Source: a virus
DNA: 47,737 nt
IMG/VR virus record: IMGVR_UViG_3300017735_000016
Coordinates: 1-47,737 of that record
Direction: 5' to 3' (one strand)
The position numbers and the translations under genes were made by a program. Each line of letters opens with the position of its first letter. Position 1 is the stretch's first letter. Positions 1-14,260 of this stretch are shown here, in pieces. The notes beneath the pieces were generated by a model. It was not told the origin of the DNA. It saw only the letters and a program-made list of their open reading frames with translations, and searched no databases.

Positions 1-285
1 CCATCACCAACAACAACTGTGAATCCGACAAGTACACCCGTACCTAGTCCAACACCAACGGTAGAACCAACAAGTACACCCGTACCTAGTCCAACACCAA
101 CGGTAGAACCAACAAGTACACCCGTACCTAGTCCAACACCAACGGAACAACCTGAGGCCACACCAACCCCAACCCCTAATCAAGAACCCACACCAACACC
201 ACAGACACCAACAGCAACTCCTGTTGGTCCAACGCCGACACCTACGGTTGATGCCGCTAATACGATATTTGTTCATTACCCATAA
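1..285 (+). CDS. C-terminal end of a Pro/Thr-rich repeat protein (cut by left edge)
   Basis: The reading frame is open from the first base and stops at TAA 283-285, so only the last 94 codons are visible. A GTG at 19 is in frame but sits inside the repeat and is unlikely to be the true start. Almost the whole visible part is a low-complexity Pro/Thr/Ser linker, including three copies of the 14-residue unit [14 protein letters not shown], ending in a short non-repetitive tail (TIFVHYP). The next gene, 13 nt downstream, has a similar linker in its middle, so the two may be paralogous or share a virion role such as a surface or fibre-tip protein. Function cannot be assigned from the fragment. 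Confidence 0.75.
19..144 (+). repeat. 42-bp tandem repeat, three copies
   Basis: Three 42-bp units lie at 19-60, 61-102 and 103-144. Copies two and three are identical; copy one differs only in its first few bases (gtgaatccg instead of gtagaacca). The unit length is a multiple of three, so gain or loss of copies keeps the reading frame. It encodes a 14-residue Pro/Thr/Ser unit. Confidence 0.9.
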
Positions 286-298
286 AACTTAATAGATC

Positions 299-2095
299 AT
301 GACAAACGATAAAATAATAGAAATAACATCACAATTAAATCGAACAACTACTGAAGATATTGTTTCGGTTTCATATGGTACAAAAACCGTAAATGGTAAA
401 TTAACAAGTGAAAAATCTATAGTCTTTACTGTTAAAGAAAAAAAACCTTTAGAGAATATTGATGAATCAGATAGATTACCGTCAACAGTAGAGATCGATG
501 GCGAGACGATTAAAACCGACGTTATTGAAGGTGTAGTAATGACTCAACAGGGATTTGCTCAAACATGTGATCCACAATTCTATTCGTGGCAAGGAATACC
601 ACCTGCCAACAGAAATATACATAGACCATTAATGGGTGGAATCTCAATGACTAATTGGGATTCGTTAGGTGGTTTTGTAGGAACGATGGGTTTTATTGCG
701 GTGGATAACGAAGATAACACTTTAGTTGCGGTTTCGAATAACCACGTTTTAGTTAATGACGCGTTTTTAACGAGTGAAAGAAACCCTAATGGTGTAAGAA
801 CTAACGTATTCCAAAATATATGTACACAACCTAATGATGGGGCAAACACGGGTCCAAATTTTAAGGTGGGTATGGTAAAAAAATATGAACCTATTAGTTC
901 TAATAATAAATCTGATTGTGCTTTGATGGCCATAGATGATATTAGTTTAATTGACCCTTCGGTTTCATGGAACCAATTCGGTATTACGGGTATGACCCAA
1001 GCACCAAGATTTGCAACTACTCAGGAAATAAATGTTATGTTGGAAGATCCAACTCAAGAATATTATATATCTAGTAGAACAACAGGTGCTAAGGGACAAC
1101 AAGACACTAAACTTTTAAACTATGCTTTGGGTAGTTCTGTATTAATAGGATATAAAAAACAAGGTGTATTAACTAACGTGTATATGGATGATACATTTGA
1201 ATTAGTTGCAAGTGGTTCTACCACCCCTGCGGGTGATTTATGTATTTGGCCATCGGCGGGTGGGGATTCGGGATCCGCAGTTTTAGCAACAATAAATGAA
1301 GAATTTGTTATTGTTGGTCTTTTATATGGGGGAAGATATATGCAACAAGATGAAACTCAAGTGGGTATACATACCCTATGTAACAGAATCGATAATATTG
1401 CAAATGATCTTAATATACGTGCATGGGATGGTACTTTTAATGGAGTTACCGTAAATAATGTAGGAGGTCCATTAACATATGTTGTTAGTGGTACTAGTAA
1501 TAAGAAAAGAATTAAAGTTGGTGCTCTTACGTTTTGGCAACACGGGTTAATTAGTGATTCTGTAATGCAACCTGATCCAACACCACAGCCAACACCAACA
1601 GTAGTCCCTACACAGGTACCAACCTCCACACCACAACCAACACCAACAGCGACAGTGGCACCTACACCAACACCAACACAGGTTCCTAACCCAACAGCAA
1701 CGGTAGCACCAACACCGACACCACAAACTTTACCATTCTCTCTTTCTCTTAATAGGGAAAATGTATGTACCGTAGCTCAAGTAATATTAGAAATAAATAA
1801 TGTACAGCAAGGTGCGGTTATTAATATTATTGAGGGTGGTATTCTTACGGCCACACCAAGAAGTGCAACAGTTACTGTAGGTGACGTAATAAGAGTTAGA
1901 TATAAGTCAGCTAACAACACTAATTCGTGTAGTGAGTATGATACAACAAGTGTTTCTCTAACTGATACATCCACAGGAAATGTATTGTCCGCGGCATCAC
2001 AGAATACATCATTATATACCGATTATGTTCATACAGTTCAAGTTTCCGATACAAATATTGGTTGGACATTTGAACTTTCCAACAATCTCGTGTAA
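299..2095 (+). CDS. Trypsin-like serine protease with Pro/Thr linker and C-terminal beta domain
   Basis: This 598-residue protein has the signature of a chymotrypsin-fold (S1-like) serine protease: His149 in SNNHVL, Asp206 in KSDCALM and Ser324 in GGDSGSA, in the order and spacing of the catalytic triad. The protease part covers roughly residues 60-400. Residues about 423-478 are a Pro/Thr linker, and residues about 480-598 look like an Ig-type beta domain. There is no signal peptide, consistent with a virion or intracellular protein. It lies 13 nt after another Pro/Thr-linker gene and 29 nt before a baseplate-like gene, so it is probably a structural or tail-associated enzyme. Possible roles are self-processing, cleavage of host surface proteins, or adhesion. 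The triad is read by eye; the target is unknown. Confidence 0.75.
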   Translation: MTNDKIIEITSQLNRTTTEDIVSVSYGTKTVNGKLTSEKSIVFTVKEKKPLENIDESDRLPSTVEIDGETIKTDVIEGVVMTQQGFAQTCDPQFYSWQGIPPANRNIHRPLMGGISMTNWDSLGGFVGTMGFIAVDNEDNTLVAVSNNHVLVNDAFLTSERNPNGVRTNVFQNICTQPNDGANTGPNFKVGMVKKYEPISSNNKSDCALMAIDDISLIDPSVSWNQFGITGMTQAPRFATTQEINVMLEDPTQEYYISSRTTGAKGQQDTKLLNYALGSSVLIGYKKQGVLTNVYMDDTFELVASGSTTPAGDLCIWPSAGGDSGSAVLATINEEFVIVGLLYGGRYMQQDETQVGIHTLCNRIDNIANDLNIRAWDGTFNGVTVNNVGGPLTYVVSGTSNKKRIKVGALTFWQHGLISDSVMQPDPTPQPTPTVVPTQVPTSTPQPTPTATVAPTPTPTQVPNPTATVAPTPTPQTLPFSLSLNRENVCTVAQVILEINNVQQGAVINIIEGGILTATPRSATVTVGDVIRVRYKSANNTNSCSEYDTTSVSLTDTSTGNVLSAASQNTSLYTDYVHTVQVSDTNIGWTFELSNNLV

Positions 2096-2124: not shown

Positions 2125-2493
2125 ATGGAATTTTTTATACGAAAAGGGGCTACAGACCCATTATTAAAATTAAGGTTGGTTGACGACGGTAAAAACGATA
2201 AGTCTTCTTTAAACGACTTATTAGAAAATGCCGACATTAGGTTTGATATGATTGATATCGAAACAGAGGTTCCTGAAATTTTAGGTGGTGAATGTTTATT
2301 GACAACAAGAACCAAAAAGTATGACCAAACTACAGAAGAATATTACATTACATATAGGTTCACATCAGAACAAACAAAAGAATCGGGTAAATTCGAGGGA
2401 ATAGTTAACATACAATTTAGAGACACAGATTTACTACCCACAAATAAACTCATCGTTCCAATTAAGGAAAAACTCTACATTAACATCATTTAG
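2125..2493 (+). CDS. Small baseplate-type protein with BppU-like Ig fold
   Basis: The 122-residue product starts FIRKGATDPLLKLRL, followed by LENADIRFDMID, then a region like TEEYYITYRFTSEQTKESG and a final IPIKEKLYINI-like strand. This order (ligand-like start, 'lkgatV.F.m', 'G.Y.y.wt..dt..sG.y...', closing strand) is the pattern of the BppU N-terminal Ig-like domain found in phage baseplate upper proteins. The assignment rests on pattern resemblance only. It lies between the protease and DNA polymerase genes and carries the TATTTAT element just ahead of its ATG, which groups it with the structural genes rather than with the polymerase. Confidence 0.5.
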   Translation: MEFFIRKGATDPLLKLRLVDDGKNDKSSLNDLLENADIRFDMIDIETEVPEILGGECLLTTRTKKYDQTTEEYYITYRFTSEQTKESGKFEGIVNIQFRDTDLLPTNKLIVPIKEKLYINII

Positions 2494-11446: not shown

Positions 11447-14260
11447 ATGGCAAATTCAAACAGAGTATTCGTTTCTCCAGGTGTATATACCTCAGAAAAG
11501 GATTTAACGTTCGTAGCACAAAGTGTGGGTGTGACCACATTAGGGTTATCAGGTGAGGCACTAAAAGGACCTGCATTTGAACCAATTCTAATAAGAAATT
11601 TTGACGAATTCAAAACATATTTTGGACCTACTTCACCAACTAAATTTTCGGACGGTAACCCAAAATACGAATTGGGTTATGTCGCAAAATCATACCTTCA
11701 AGAATCTAACCAATTATTTGTAACAAGAGTTTTAGGTTTGACGGGTTACGTACCAAAAATAACATACGCAATTAAAACATTAGGCGGAATAACAGTAGAC
11801 CTTACAGGTGGAACTACAAATACGGTAGAGGATCTTATAGGAACTGGTTTAGATATTTCAACTTATTCATTATTTGAAAACCTAAGTGGGAAGACAGCAA
11901 ATGATGGAAGTTCTATGTCTGACTGGATTACAAATTTAGGTGTCTTAGCTGACGGATCATGGTTTACTATTGGTTTAGTTGATGGGGCAGAAACATTAAG
12001 TTTGGGATCGTCTTTACAGATAGCGGGACCAATAGGAACAAACAACAATAACAATTGGTATAACACTTATTTTACAGAAAACGGTCTTGGAGTAGTATCG
12101 GGTGTAAGTTCTTACCTTTTTGTTTGGGATCAGACAGATAACGGATTCAAAATAACAGAGTTTAGTTATAATGCTTCAGTAAATTCTGACTACGACAATA
12201 TAGTGGTACTATCACTAAGATCAAGAGGATCGTACCAAGGACAAACATTAAACCTTGAATTAGGTTCATCAAGTGACATAAGTATTGCGTCATCCACTTT
12301 AGGGACCGACCCACTATCAGAATTTACACTTAATGTTACAGGTTCTACAAGTGGTGCTAAATCATTTACATGTACGTTGAATACATCATCTACTAAATAT
12401 GTTTCTAAAGTATTGGGTAATACTAATTTTGATAAGAAGAAAAATGAAGTACCTCTTTATGTTTTTGAAGAGTATCCAAAATTATTATCAGCACTTTACG
12501 GACAAGGACTTGTTAGAGGTTTAGACATTACACATGTTTCACATAACGTAGGAAACGATTATTTAAATCAATGGGAAACACCAGCATCACCAACAGTTGT
12601 ATCTGAAGTGAGAGGTGGTATTGTTTCCGACCTATTCAGTGTAATTAGTATATCAGATGGAAATGCTGCAAACACACAATTAAAAATTCAAGTTCAGAAT
12701 ATTGACCTTGATTCAGGTGAGTTTGATTTGATAATTAGAGATTTTAATGATACTGATAATAATATTTCAGTACTTGAAAAATTCTCAAGATGTACAATGA
12801 ACCCTGACCTACCTGGTTACATCGCTAAAAAGATAGGTACTTCAGATGGTGAGTATGAGTTACGTTCGAAATATATAATGTTGAACATGGCTGAAGATGC
12901 ACCTGTAGATGCATTTCCTGCAGGATTTAAAGGATTTACATCAGATTTCTTAGGTACATCTAAAGTTGGTAACGTACTATTCAAAACAAAATATAATGTG
13001 GCGGGTGACGTTGTTTCTTATAACTCACAAGGTACAGAACAAAAAACTAACGGAGATAAAATCAGAAAAGTTACTTTAGGTTTATCATCTCAAATTGGTT
13101 TCGATAGAGATTTATTTGAATATAAAGGAAACGCTGCGAGTTCAACATCACATAGTTTCCACCTTTCAAGTCAGGCGTCTGGTATATCAGGTTTTAAAAC
13201 AACACCGTATGATTTAGAAGGAAATGATAAAGGTTTATTAGAAAGTAAATCATATAGAAAATTTACATTCGCAGTTTGTGGTGGTTTTGATGGTTGGGAT
13301 ATCTACAGAGGAACAAGAACAAATGGAGATGGTTACATCTTTGGTAAAAACACTTATGTAAGTGGACACACATCTAACGGTGGTGTATTTAGTGATACTG
13401 TTGGAAACTCAGATTATTACGCATATTTAGCGGGAATTGAAACATTCTCTAATCCTGAAGCGGTTGATATCAACATATTTGCAACACCAGGTATTGATTT
13501 CTATAACCATAGTTCATTAACTAATCAAGCAATTGATATGATAGAAGGTGATAGAGCGGATTCATTATACATCACTAACTCACCTAACACTTCAGATGTT
13601 GACGAAATAGTTGACCAATTGGATGAAGTTGATTTAGATACTAACTACACGGCAACATATTGGCCTTGGATACAAGTAAGAGATGGGGACAATGCAACTC
13701 AGTTATACATTCCACCAACAGGTGAGGTTGTTAAGAATATCGCACTAACAGATAACGTTTCTTATCCTTGGTTCGCAGTAGCGGGATACCAAAGAGGTTT
13801 AGTAAATGCAATCAAAGCGAAGAAGAAGTTGACGTTAGATAACAGAGATGATCTATATAATGCAAGAATTAACCCAATTGCAACGTTCTCAGATACGGGT
13901 ACTATAATTTGGGGTAACAAAACATTACAAGTTAGAGAGTCTGCACTTGATAGAATCAACGTAAGAAGATTATTATTAAGAGCGAGAAAATTAATTTCAG
14001 CGGTGGCAGTTAGATTGTTATTTGAACAAAATGACGAACAAGTAAGAAATGAATTTTTAAGATTGGTTAACCCAATATTAGAATCTATTAAGAAAGAAAG
14101 AGGTTTATACGAATTTAGAGTAGTTGTGTCTAACGATCCAGAAGATATAGACGCGAACACACTAAGAGGTAAGATTTATGTTAAACCAACTAGATCTCTT
14201 GAATTCATTGATGTAGAATTCTTAATTACTCCAACAGGAGCATCATTTGAGAATATCTAA
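11447..14260 (+). CDS. 18: Contractile tail sheath protein (T4 gp18-like)
   Basis: The 937-residue protein starts with the sheath hallmark (FVSPGVYTSEKDLT near residue 8, then GEALKGPAFEPILIRNFDEF and TYFGP), matching the N-terminus of gp18-type sheaths. The last 200 residues hold the conserved C-terminal domain: PWFAVAGYQRG, NARINPIATF, GTIIWGNKTL, then RRLLLRARK and a closing 'iDVEFLITPtGAsfe' strand. T4 gp18 is 659 residues, so this sheath has about 280 extra residues in its middle, probably surface-exposed beta domains. The next gene but one landmark, the tube, follows after a 270-nt regulatory gap. The sheath surrounds the tube and contracts during injection. Confidence 0.95.
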   Translation: MANSNRVFVSPGVYTSEKDLTFVAQSVGVTTLGLSGEALKGPAFEPILIRNFDEFKTYFGPTSPTKFSDGNPKYELGYVAKSYLQESNQLFVTRVLGLTGYVPKITYAIKTLGGITVDLTGGTTNTVEDLIGTGLDISTYSLFENLSGKTANDGSSMSDWITNLGVLADGSWFTIGLVDGAETLSLGSSLQIAGPIGTNNNNNWYNTYFTENGLGVVSGVSSYLFVWDQTDNGFKITEFSYNASVNSDYDNIVVLSLRSRGSYQGQTLNLELGSSSDISIASSTLGTDPLSEFTLNVTGSTSGAKSFTCTLNTSSTKYVSKVLGNTNFDKKKNEVPLYVFEEYPKLLSALYGQGLVRGLDITHVSHNVGNDYLNQWETPASPTVVSEVRGGIVSDLFSVISISDGNAANTQLKIQVQNIDLDSGEFDLIIRDFNDTDNNISVLEKFSRCTMNPDLPGYIAKKIGTSDGEYELRSKYIMLNMAEDAPVDAFPAGFKGFTSDFLGTSKVGNVLFKTKYNVAGDVVSYNSQGTEQKTNGDKIRKVTLGLSSQIGFDRDLFEYKGNAASSTSHSFHLSSQASGISGFKTTPYDLEGNDKGLLESKSYRKFTFAVCGGFDGWDIYRGTRTNGDGYIFGKNTYVSGHTSNGGVFSDTVGNSDYYAYLAGIETFSNPEAVDINIFATPGIDFYNHSSLTNQAIDMIEGDRADSLYITNSPNTSDVDEIVDQLDEVDLDTNYTATYWPWIQVRDGDNATQLYIPPTGEVVKNIALTDNVSYPWFAVAGYQRGLVNAIKAKKKLTLDNRDDLYNARINPIATFSDTGTIIWGNKTLQVRESALDRINVRRLLLRARKLISAVAVRLLFEQNDEQVRNEFLRLVNPILESIKKERGLYEFRVVVSNDPEDIDANTLRGKIYVKPTRSLEFIDVEFLITPTGASFENI

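Follow-up and report, generated by a model that had tools for sequence, protein, structure and literature searches.

What is a serine protease doing among the tail genes of a bacteriophage? The question is raised by the open reading frame at positions 299 to 2,095 of the window, as we call the whole 47,737-nt stretch of DNA from an uncultured virus analysed here (IMG/VR record IMGVR_UViG_3300017735_000016). The initial annotation had described its product as a trypsin-like protease built like a virion surface protein, with a full His149-Asp206-Ser324 triad, no signal peptide and a Pro/Thr linker leading to a beta domain, lying next to another Pro/Thr-rich protein. Translation and inspection of the codons confirmed the frame and the triad (Table 1). 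The N-terminus is hydrophilic and, by eye, contains no signal-peptide-like stretch; the linker is followed by a domain predicted to be all-beta (pLDDT 81); and the neighbouring protein, although truncated by the contig start, is indeed Pro/Thr-rich. The window contains a single copy of the protease.

Table 1. Features at the beginning of the window, in order of position (aa, amino acids).
Feature	Position	Strand	Basis or remark
C-terminal end of upstream Pro/Thr-rich fibre-like ORF, cut by contig start	1..285	+	
Tag NTIFVHYP ending the upstream protein; 16 bases separate it from the protease start	259..282	+	
NAL1-like serine protease ORF, 598 aa, ATG start	299..2095	+	translation, relatives, fold
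N-terminal domain, residues 1-81, NAL1_N-like	299..541	+	model strands at 21-81
Chymotrypsin-fold protease domain, residues 109-378	623..1432	+	superposition ranges
His149 codon CAC, context NNHVL	743..745	+	
Asp206 codon GAT, context SDCAL	914..916	+	
Ser324 codon TCG, context GGDSGSA	1268..1270	+	
C-terminal core motif TFWQHG, family form [YF]WQxG	1529..1546	+	conservation
Pro/Thr-rich linker, residues 425-477 (about)	1571..1729	+	translation
C-terminal Ig-like beta domain, optional across the family	1730..2092	+	predicted structure, homologue comparison
Conserved downstream neighbour, 122 aa (MEFFIRKGATDP...)	2125..2493	+	same order in L003, L004, L006, L009, L013, L019

Relatives were collected in two scans of IMG/VR. 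Four query sequences yielded 26 loci in the first; a broader profile yielded 149 relatives in the second, 80 of which were kept, and removal of near copies left 67 distinct proteins. Near-copy or duplicate loci left out of the second set (L007, L008, L010, L011, L017, L020, L022-L024 and L026-L032) mostly reappear in it under other identifiers. L015 is absent from alignment A4.

The catalytic His, Asp and Ser residues and the GDSG motif are kept in 67 of the 67 distinct members, so the triad is not a product of chance. All 64 members tested match phrog_20754, a group labelled only "protease", whose annotation mentions neither NAL1 nor fibres nor the tag described below. The protein is a member of a large and almost unnamed family of phage proteins. 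What its members have in common is a core of about 405-430 residues, and relatives such as L015-L022 and L023-L032 end right after it, at about 404-427 residues. Near the end of the core lies the [YF]WQxG element, in which Gly416 is invariant and Gln414 and Trp413 are found in 66 and 59 of the 67 distinct relatives, respectively.

Single-protein searches against Pfam, NCBIfam and PDB sequences yielded no useful match to the core, the NCBIfam matches falling on the Pro/Thr repeat. Among the INPHARED genomes, tblastn returned no match to the window core or to L023; L030 and L066 found LR756508 only (26-27% identity), and L124 found only an Alphaspiravirus "putative serine protease" (22.9%, E 6e-3). 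The latter, encoded at HE681887.1:10592-11311 in Alphaspiravirus yamagawaense, is weakly similar to the family. The LR756508 relative (L033:7950-8957) is a NAL1-like protein of 335 residues from a 484-kb uncultured phage genome, where it stands among non-tail genes; by eye, it has neither the tag nor the [YF]WQxG element. A first scan of genome contigs found no relatives; a second found two, one in Halomonas (L129) and the other in a Neomarinimicrobiota MAG contig. Literature searches for trypsin-like proteases in phage virions and for NAL1 together with bacteriophage turned up nothing on such a pairing. In the excerpted text of PMC10783043, a trypsin-like serine protease is listed in one alphaproteobacterial phage group, with no further detail given there.

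The predicted structure of the core (pLDDT 73.9, pTM 0.81) finds its best match in rice NAL1 (Foldseek E 4.9e-16). VIA-align superposes model residues 1-384 on this protein with a Z score of 29.4 and an rmsd of 3.7 over 320 aligned residues, at 15% identity; the next family, comprising bacterial proteases (2sfa, alpha-lytic protease), attains a Z score of about 18.9 and is matched over residues 109-378 only. NAL1 is also found by sequence with a 64-sequence profile (4.5e-6), the HV and GDSGS motifs being aligned. At E values up to 0.1, Pfam NAL1_N is detected in 21 of the 64 relatives (best 6.2e-7) and Nal1_C in four of the 64 (best 0.014); the window protein matches neither, and its missing NAL1_N match speaks against strict membership of the NAL1 family. 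As modelled, the protein is a phage serine protease of the NAL1 type, having the N-terminal domain as well as the chymotrypsin-fold domain and superposing on rice NAL1 over the whole core. Members of the NAL1 family assemble into hexamers. Rice NAL1 is a plant regulator, whereas the phage member is a tail gene; unlike NAL1, the phage proteins have an added C-terminal [YF]WQxG element and Pro/Thr-rich or adhesin tails. Until now the fold has been known mainly from plants, and the excerpted text of a recent maize paper presents NAL1 as a plant-specific serine protease (PMC12915138). The closest viral predicted structure, an unannotated protein of Virus NIOZ-UU157 (A0A7S9XDX3), has a TM score of 0.79 and is 28% identical.

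The comparison with S1 proteases called for at the outset gave a match to the chymotrypsin fold (S1, clan PA), with GDSG present and His, Asp and Ser in order. Alpha-lytic protease and the Streptomyces griseus proteases, which are secreted bacterial enzymes, share the double beta-barrel domain with the model (rmsd 2.3-2.4 A over 184-191 residues, alpha-lytic protease accounting for 191 residues at 2.4 A) but lack an N-terminal domain of the NAL1 type. Superposition of the modelled residues 109-378 on alpha-lytic protease is indirectly consistent with the three triad residues meeting in the fold. Trypsin proper, with its specificity for a basic P1 residue, has an Asp at the sixth position ahead of its catalytic Ser. 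The family has a proline there (Pro318, conserved at 90% or more), so the term "trypsin-like" is true only of the fold.

The linker and the beta domain, to which the initial annotation had attached weight, are confined to a single clade, made up of L008-L014 together with the window protein. Being an optional tail and no hallmark of the family, they say little about a surface role. Homologues of the beta domain are limited to the tails of proteases within this clade, which led us to reject the idea that it is a fibre paralogue; the exception is the second tail domain of L008, present in two other ORFs. VIA-align and Foldseek matches were too weak to give the beta domain a family name (best Z 8.6; pilin and adhesin domains). 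Elsewhere in the family the tails differ, some of them being surface-type modules: Pfam identifies PKD and DUF285 domains in L083 and L106 and an M12B reprolysin domain in L118. In this last case (L118:4974-11216), a single ORF of 2080 residues combines the NAL1-like protease with a reprolysin-type metalloprotease (HELGHNLGTIHTHD; Pfam 4.4e-12).

The window encodes a tail sheath, a tail tube, a baseplate-like protein and T4-type replication proteins, and its minus strand gives a match to a head-tail adaptor; sheath and tube genes also lie, by eye, beside L023 and L025. The presumed phage structural context thus holds, the gene adjoining a fibre-like gene within the tail cluster of a phage with a contractile tail, and the order relative to fibre genes is tight across the family. 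These neighbours speak for a protein of the virion tail. The initial annotation is partly supported: sound in its main lines, it leaned on the wrong feature. The conserved 122-residue downstream neighbour has no Pfam match. By eye, it resembles proteins of 135-136 residues (L105:4568-4978, L116:121-528; MEFFIRKGATDP versus M[ND]FYIKKNSTLP), which stand upstream of proteases whose loci lack the tag. Relatives of the sheath include Flavobacterium phages and the best relatives of the polymerase are Salinibacter phages, at 24%; we infer a host of the Bacteroidota type.

The unexpected part of the locus is a conserved peptide at the very C-terminus of the neighbouring fibre protein, and it constitutes much stronger evidence for a surface role than the linker and beta domain. 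The upstream protein ends in a tag of the form N-T-[IVL]-[FYW]-x-x-[FIY]-[PDEN]. More of this protein is seen in the 91%-identical sibling L003, where the ORF extends over at least 576 residues; a domain of this fibre (L003:2-1732), ending in YECYYHGYMGGQD, is cupredoxin-like by eye. Inspection by eye found the tag in the upstream ORF of all 25 first loci (NTIFLHIE, for example). Of the 63 distinct loci whose protease has an ORF adjoining it upstream, 53 match the strict pattern, versus one of 444 other ORFs in these loci, and that sole match also precedes a protease. L102 and L109, cut at the 5' end, were excluded from the tag counts. Adding by eye L015 (NSVYVHIP), L103 and L113 (DYIRFS and DYVRFS types) and L061, in which a tagged fibre is followed by a tandem protease pair, brings the tally to 57 tagged and eight untagged among 65 testable distinct loci. 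The untagged loci are L083, L105, L106, L112, L115, L116, L118 and L119, two of which have no adjacent ORF. Taking the window together with five records, the tag is matched by 10 of 694 ORFs, six of them before a protease; the genome-wide background there is four of 684 ORFs. Fisher's test puts the statistical link between tag and protease at about 1e-60, uncorrected for kinship; the counts are not independent because tagged pairs are inherited together. When the proteases are clustered at 60% identity, 25 of the 31 clusters are entirely tagged, five are untagged and one is mixed. Of 55 distinct tag strings, 52 have the Thr and all 55 have an aromatic residue at position +2, partly by construction since the motif itself served as anchor. 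A ribosome-binding artefact was considered and rejected, since the spacing between this tag and the start of the protease varies from -7 to +18 bases.

We envisaged that the tag could serve to attach the protease to the fibre. Carriers are largely unrelated and yet keep the tag just before the protease gene, which makes docking likely. BLAST sorts the upstream bodies into 10 unlinked groups, one large group probably being held together by shared fibre modules, and the carriers include a protein of 101 residues (L099) and even other proteases (L025). In L025, five of the six ORFs preceding a protease (four proteases and a structural-looking protein of 920 residues) end in the tag or, by eye, in a looser variant (TTYMRVIEN, TTYMNL, TTYFYIS); the first ORF does not, and the two proteases that no protease follows are untagged. 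The tag occurs twice in tandem in L052 and L054. Against docking speak the eight untagged loci, the tagless LR756508 relative among its non-tail genes, and the L061 and L099 tandem arrays, where the second protease comes after an untagged one. The Neomarinimicrobiota relative (24% identity), found without using the tag, has an upstream ORF ending in DTVFMKVS. Very long protease ORFs (4/8 untagged versus 0/57 tagged loci, p 1e-4) and a missing Trp413 (p 0.006) are both associated with absence of the tag, small numbers being involved in both cases. Natural in-frame fusions of fibre and protease were sought and none was found; only L114 has an open extension of more than 25 residues (37 residues). 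A module of about 296 residues is embedded in the L006 tagged fibre and recurs, 46% identical, in the protease tail of L109, as if fibre and protease were both at one place. This module (L006:11-3919, L109:1-2094) shows an EH[IV][FL]HT[VI]H motif and has no Pfam name.

Scans from the side of the tag gave 60 stretches, of which 30 were counted as real C-termini and the other 30 were judged by eye to have matched by chance in short or antisense frames. A protease comes next in 26 of the 30 real ones, and the majority are on contigs that the protease scans had already found. The remaining four (L196, L197, L198 and L200, all of one phage type) have a good tag and no adjoining protease, nor was a protease found anywhere in their records (4.7-26 kb), and the tag is therefore not confined to protease loci. 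In these phages, Ser/Thr-rich proteins end in NTIYTHF[DE]AL and the next gene encodes 371-378 residues (MSNCSNCYNGC...).

Our preferred reading builds on the computed reading frame, triad conservation, NAL1-like fold, tail neighbourhood and tag-protease gene link, and we give it about an even chance: a NAL1-fold protease resides in the tail, docked on the C-terminal peptide of the upstream protein, and cuts host-surface proteins at adsorption. The protease would be made in the cytoplasm, as the lack of a signal peptide suggests, and then built into the tail. It would bind the NT[IVL][FYW]xx[FIY][PDEN] peptide of its partner, usually a long fibre with Pro/Thr or Ser/Thr linkers; the peptide is probably bound as an added beta strand, docking site and strand mode both being guesses. 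Mounted on the fibre, the enzyme would cleave proteins on the host surface during adsorption; in some phages its own linker bears further beta or adhesin domains. Presence in the virion and catalytic activity are presumed here, and surface proteolysis is plausible given the neighbours and the fused domains. As a bolder reading, we tentatively propose a phage-wide plug-and-socket system, possible though doubtful, in which a C-terminal beta-strand tag of about eight residues would allow a tail protein to capture whatever the following gene encodes, in most cases a NAL1-like protease. Tag-bearing proteases could then form daisy chains on one fibre, as perhaps in L025, and other effectors may be docked likewise where carriers are without a protease, as in L196, L197, L198 and L200.

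Many phages have dedicated maturation proteases, and fibre trimming is a live rival to docking, albeit a rather unlikely one. The tag would then be a recognition or product peptide and the fibre would be trimmed during assembly, making presence in the virion unnecessary. The one-to-one pairing of the genes, the single protease in 27 of 30 records and the terminal position of the tag all fit a substrate signal; however, no residues follow the tag that could be cut off, some of its carriers are themselves proteases (L025), and fusion to long structural or metalloprotease tails suggests that the protease stays. C-termini of fibres often hold folding elements, and the tag might be just such a folding or trimerisation strand, making no contact with a protease whose proximity merely reflects operon history. 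Tags without a neighbouring protease in L196, L197, L198 and L200 suit this idea, which we nonetheless hold distinctly unlikely: the tag is borne by mostly unlinked proteins, among them proteases and a 101-residue protein, a protease gene almost always follows it directly, and its absence tracks protease architecture.

An intracellular protease, engaged in host takeover, counter-defence or capsid maturation and merely situated in the tail cluster, would agree with the missing signal peptide and with the non-tail surroundings of the remote LR756508 relative, but the tightly kept order of protease and fibre genes throughout the family, the link to the tag and the fused adhesin or metalloprotease domains make it very improbable. 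Non-enzymatic adhesins, gp38 among them, commonly form the tips of fibres (PMC12892980, excerpted text), but retention of a dead protease fold as adhesin or scaffold is extremely unlikely with His, Asp, Ser and GDSG intact in every distinct member.

The proposed docking of the protease on the fibre recalls an arrangement in T2-type phages, where the gp38 gene lies directly downstream of gp37. In the excerpted text of PMC12892980, gp38 is a small protein mounted on the end of the gp37 fibre. It is a poly-glycine sandwich adhesin according to the same text, whereas the window core is modelled as a protease fold and the two proteins are unrelated; furthermore, the conserved part of the fibre is here a short C-terminal peptide.

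Virion enzymes that cut host-surface sugars are well known; virion-mounted proteases have, to our knowledge, rarely been described. If docking on the fibre is correct, a widespread class of proteases is added to tail fibres, and a protease family described as plant-specific acquires a bacteriophage branch. The short portable peptide could become a tool for fixing enzymes to fibres, and for annotation a tagged C-terminus would predict the function of the next gene.

One further observation concerns the tail sheath of the window (positions 11447-14260, 937 residues). The tblastn pieces of most of the cultured relatives listed span only about its last third, so the window sheath has a large extra region.
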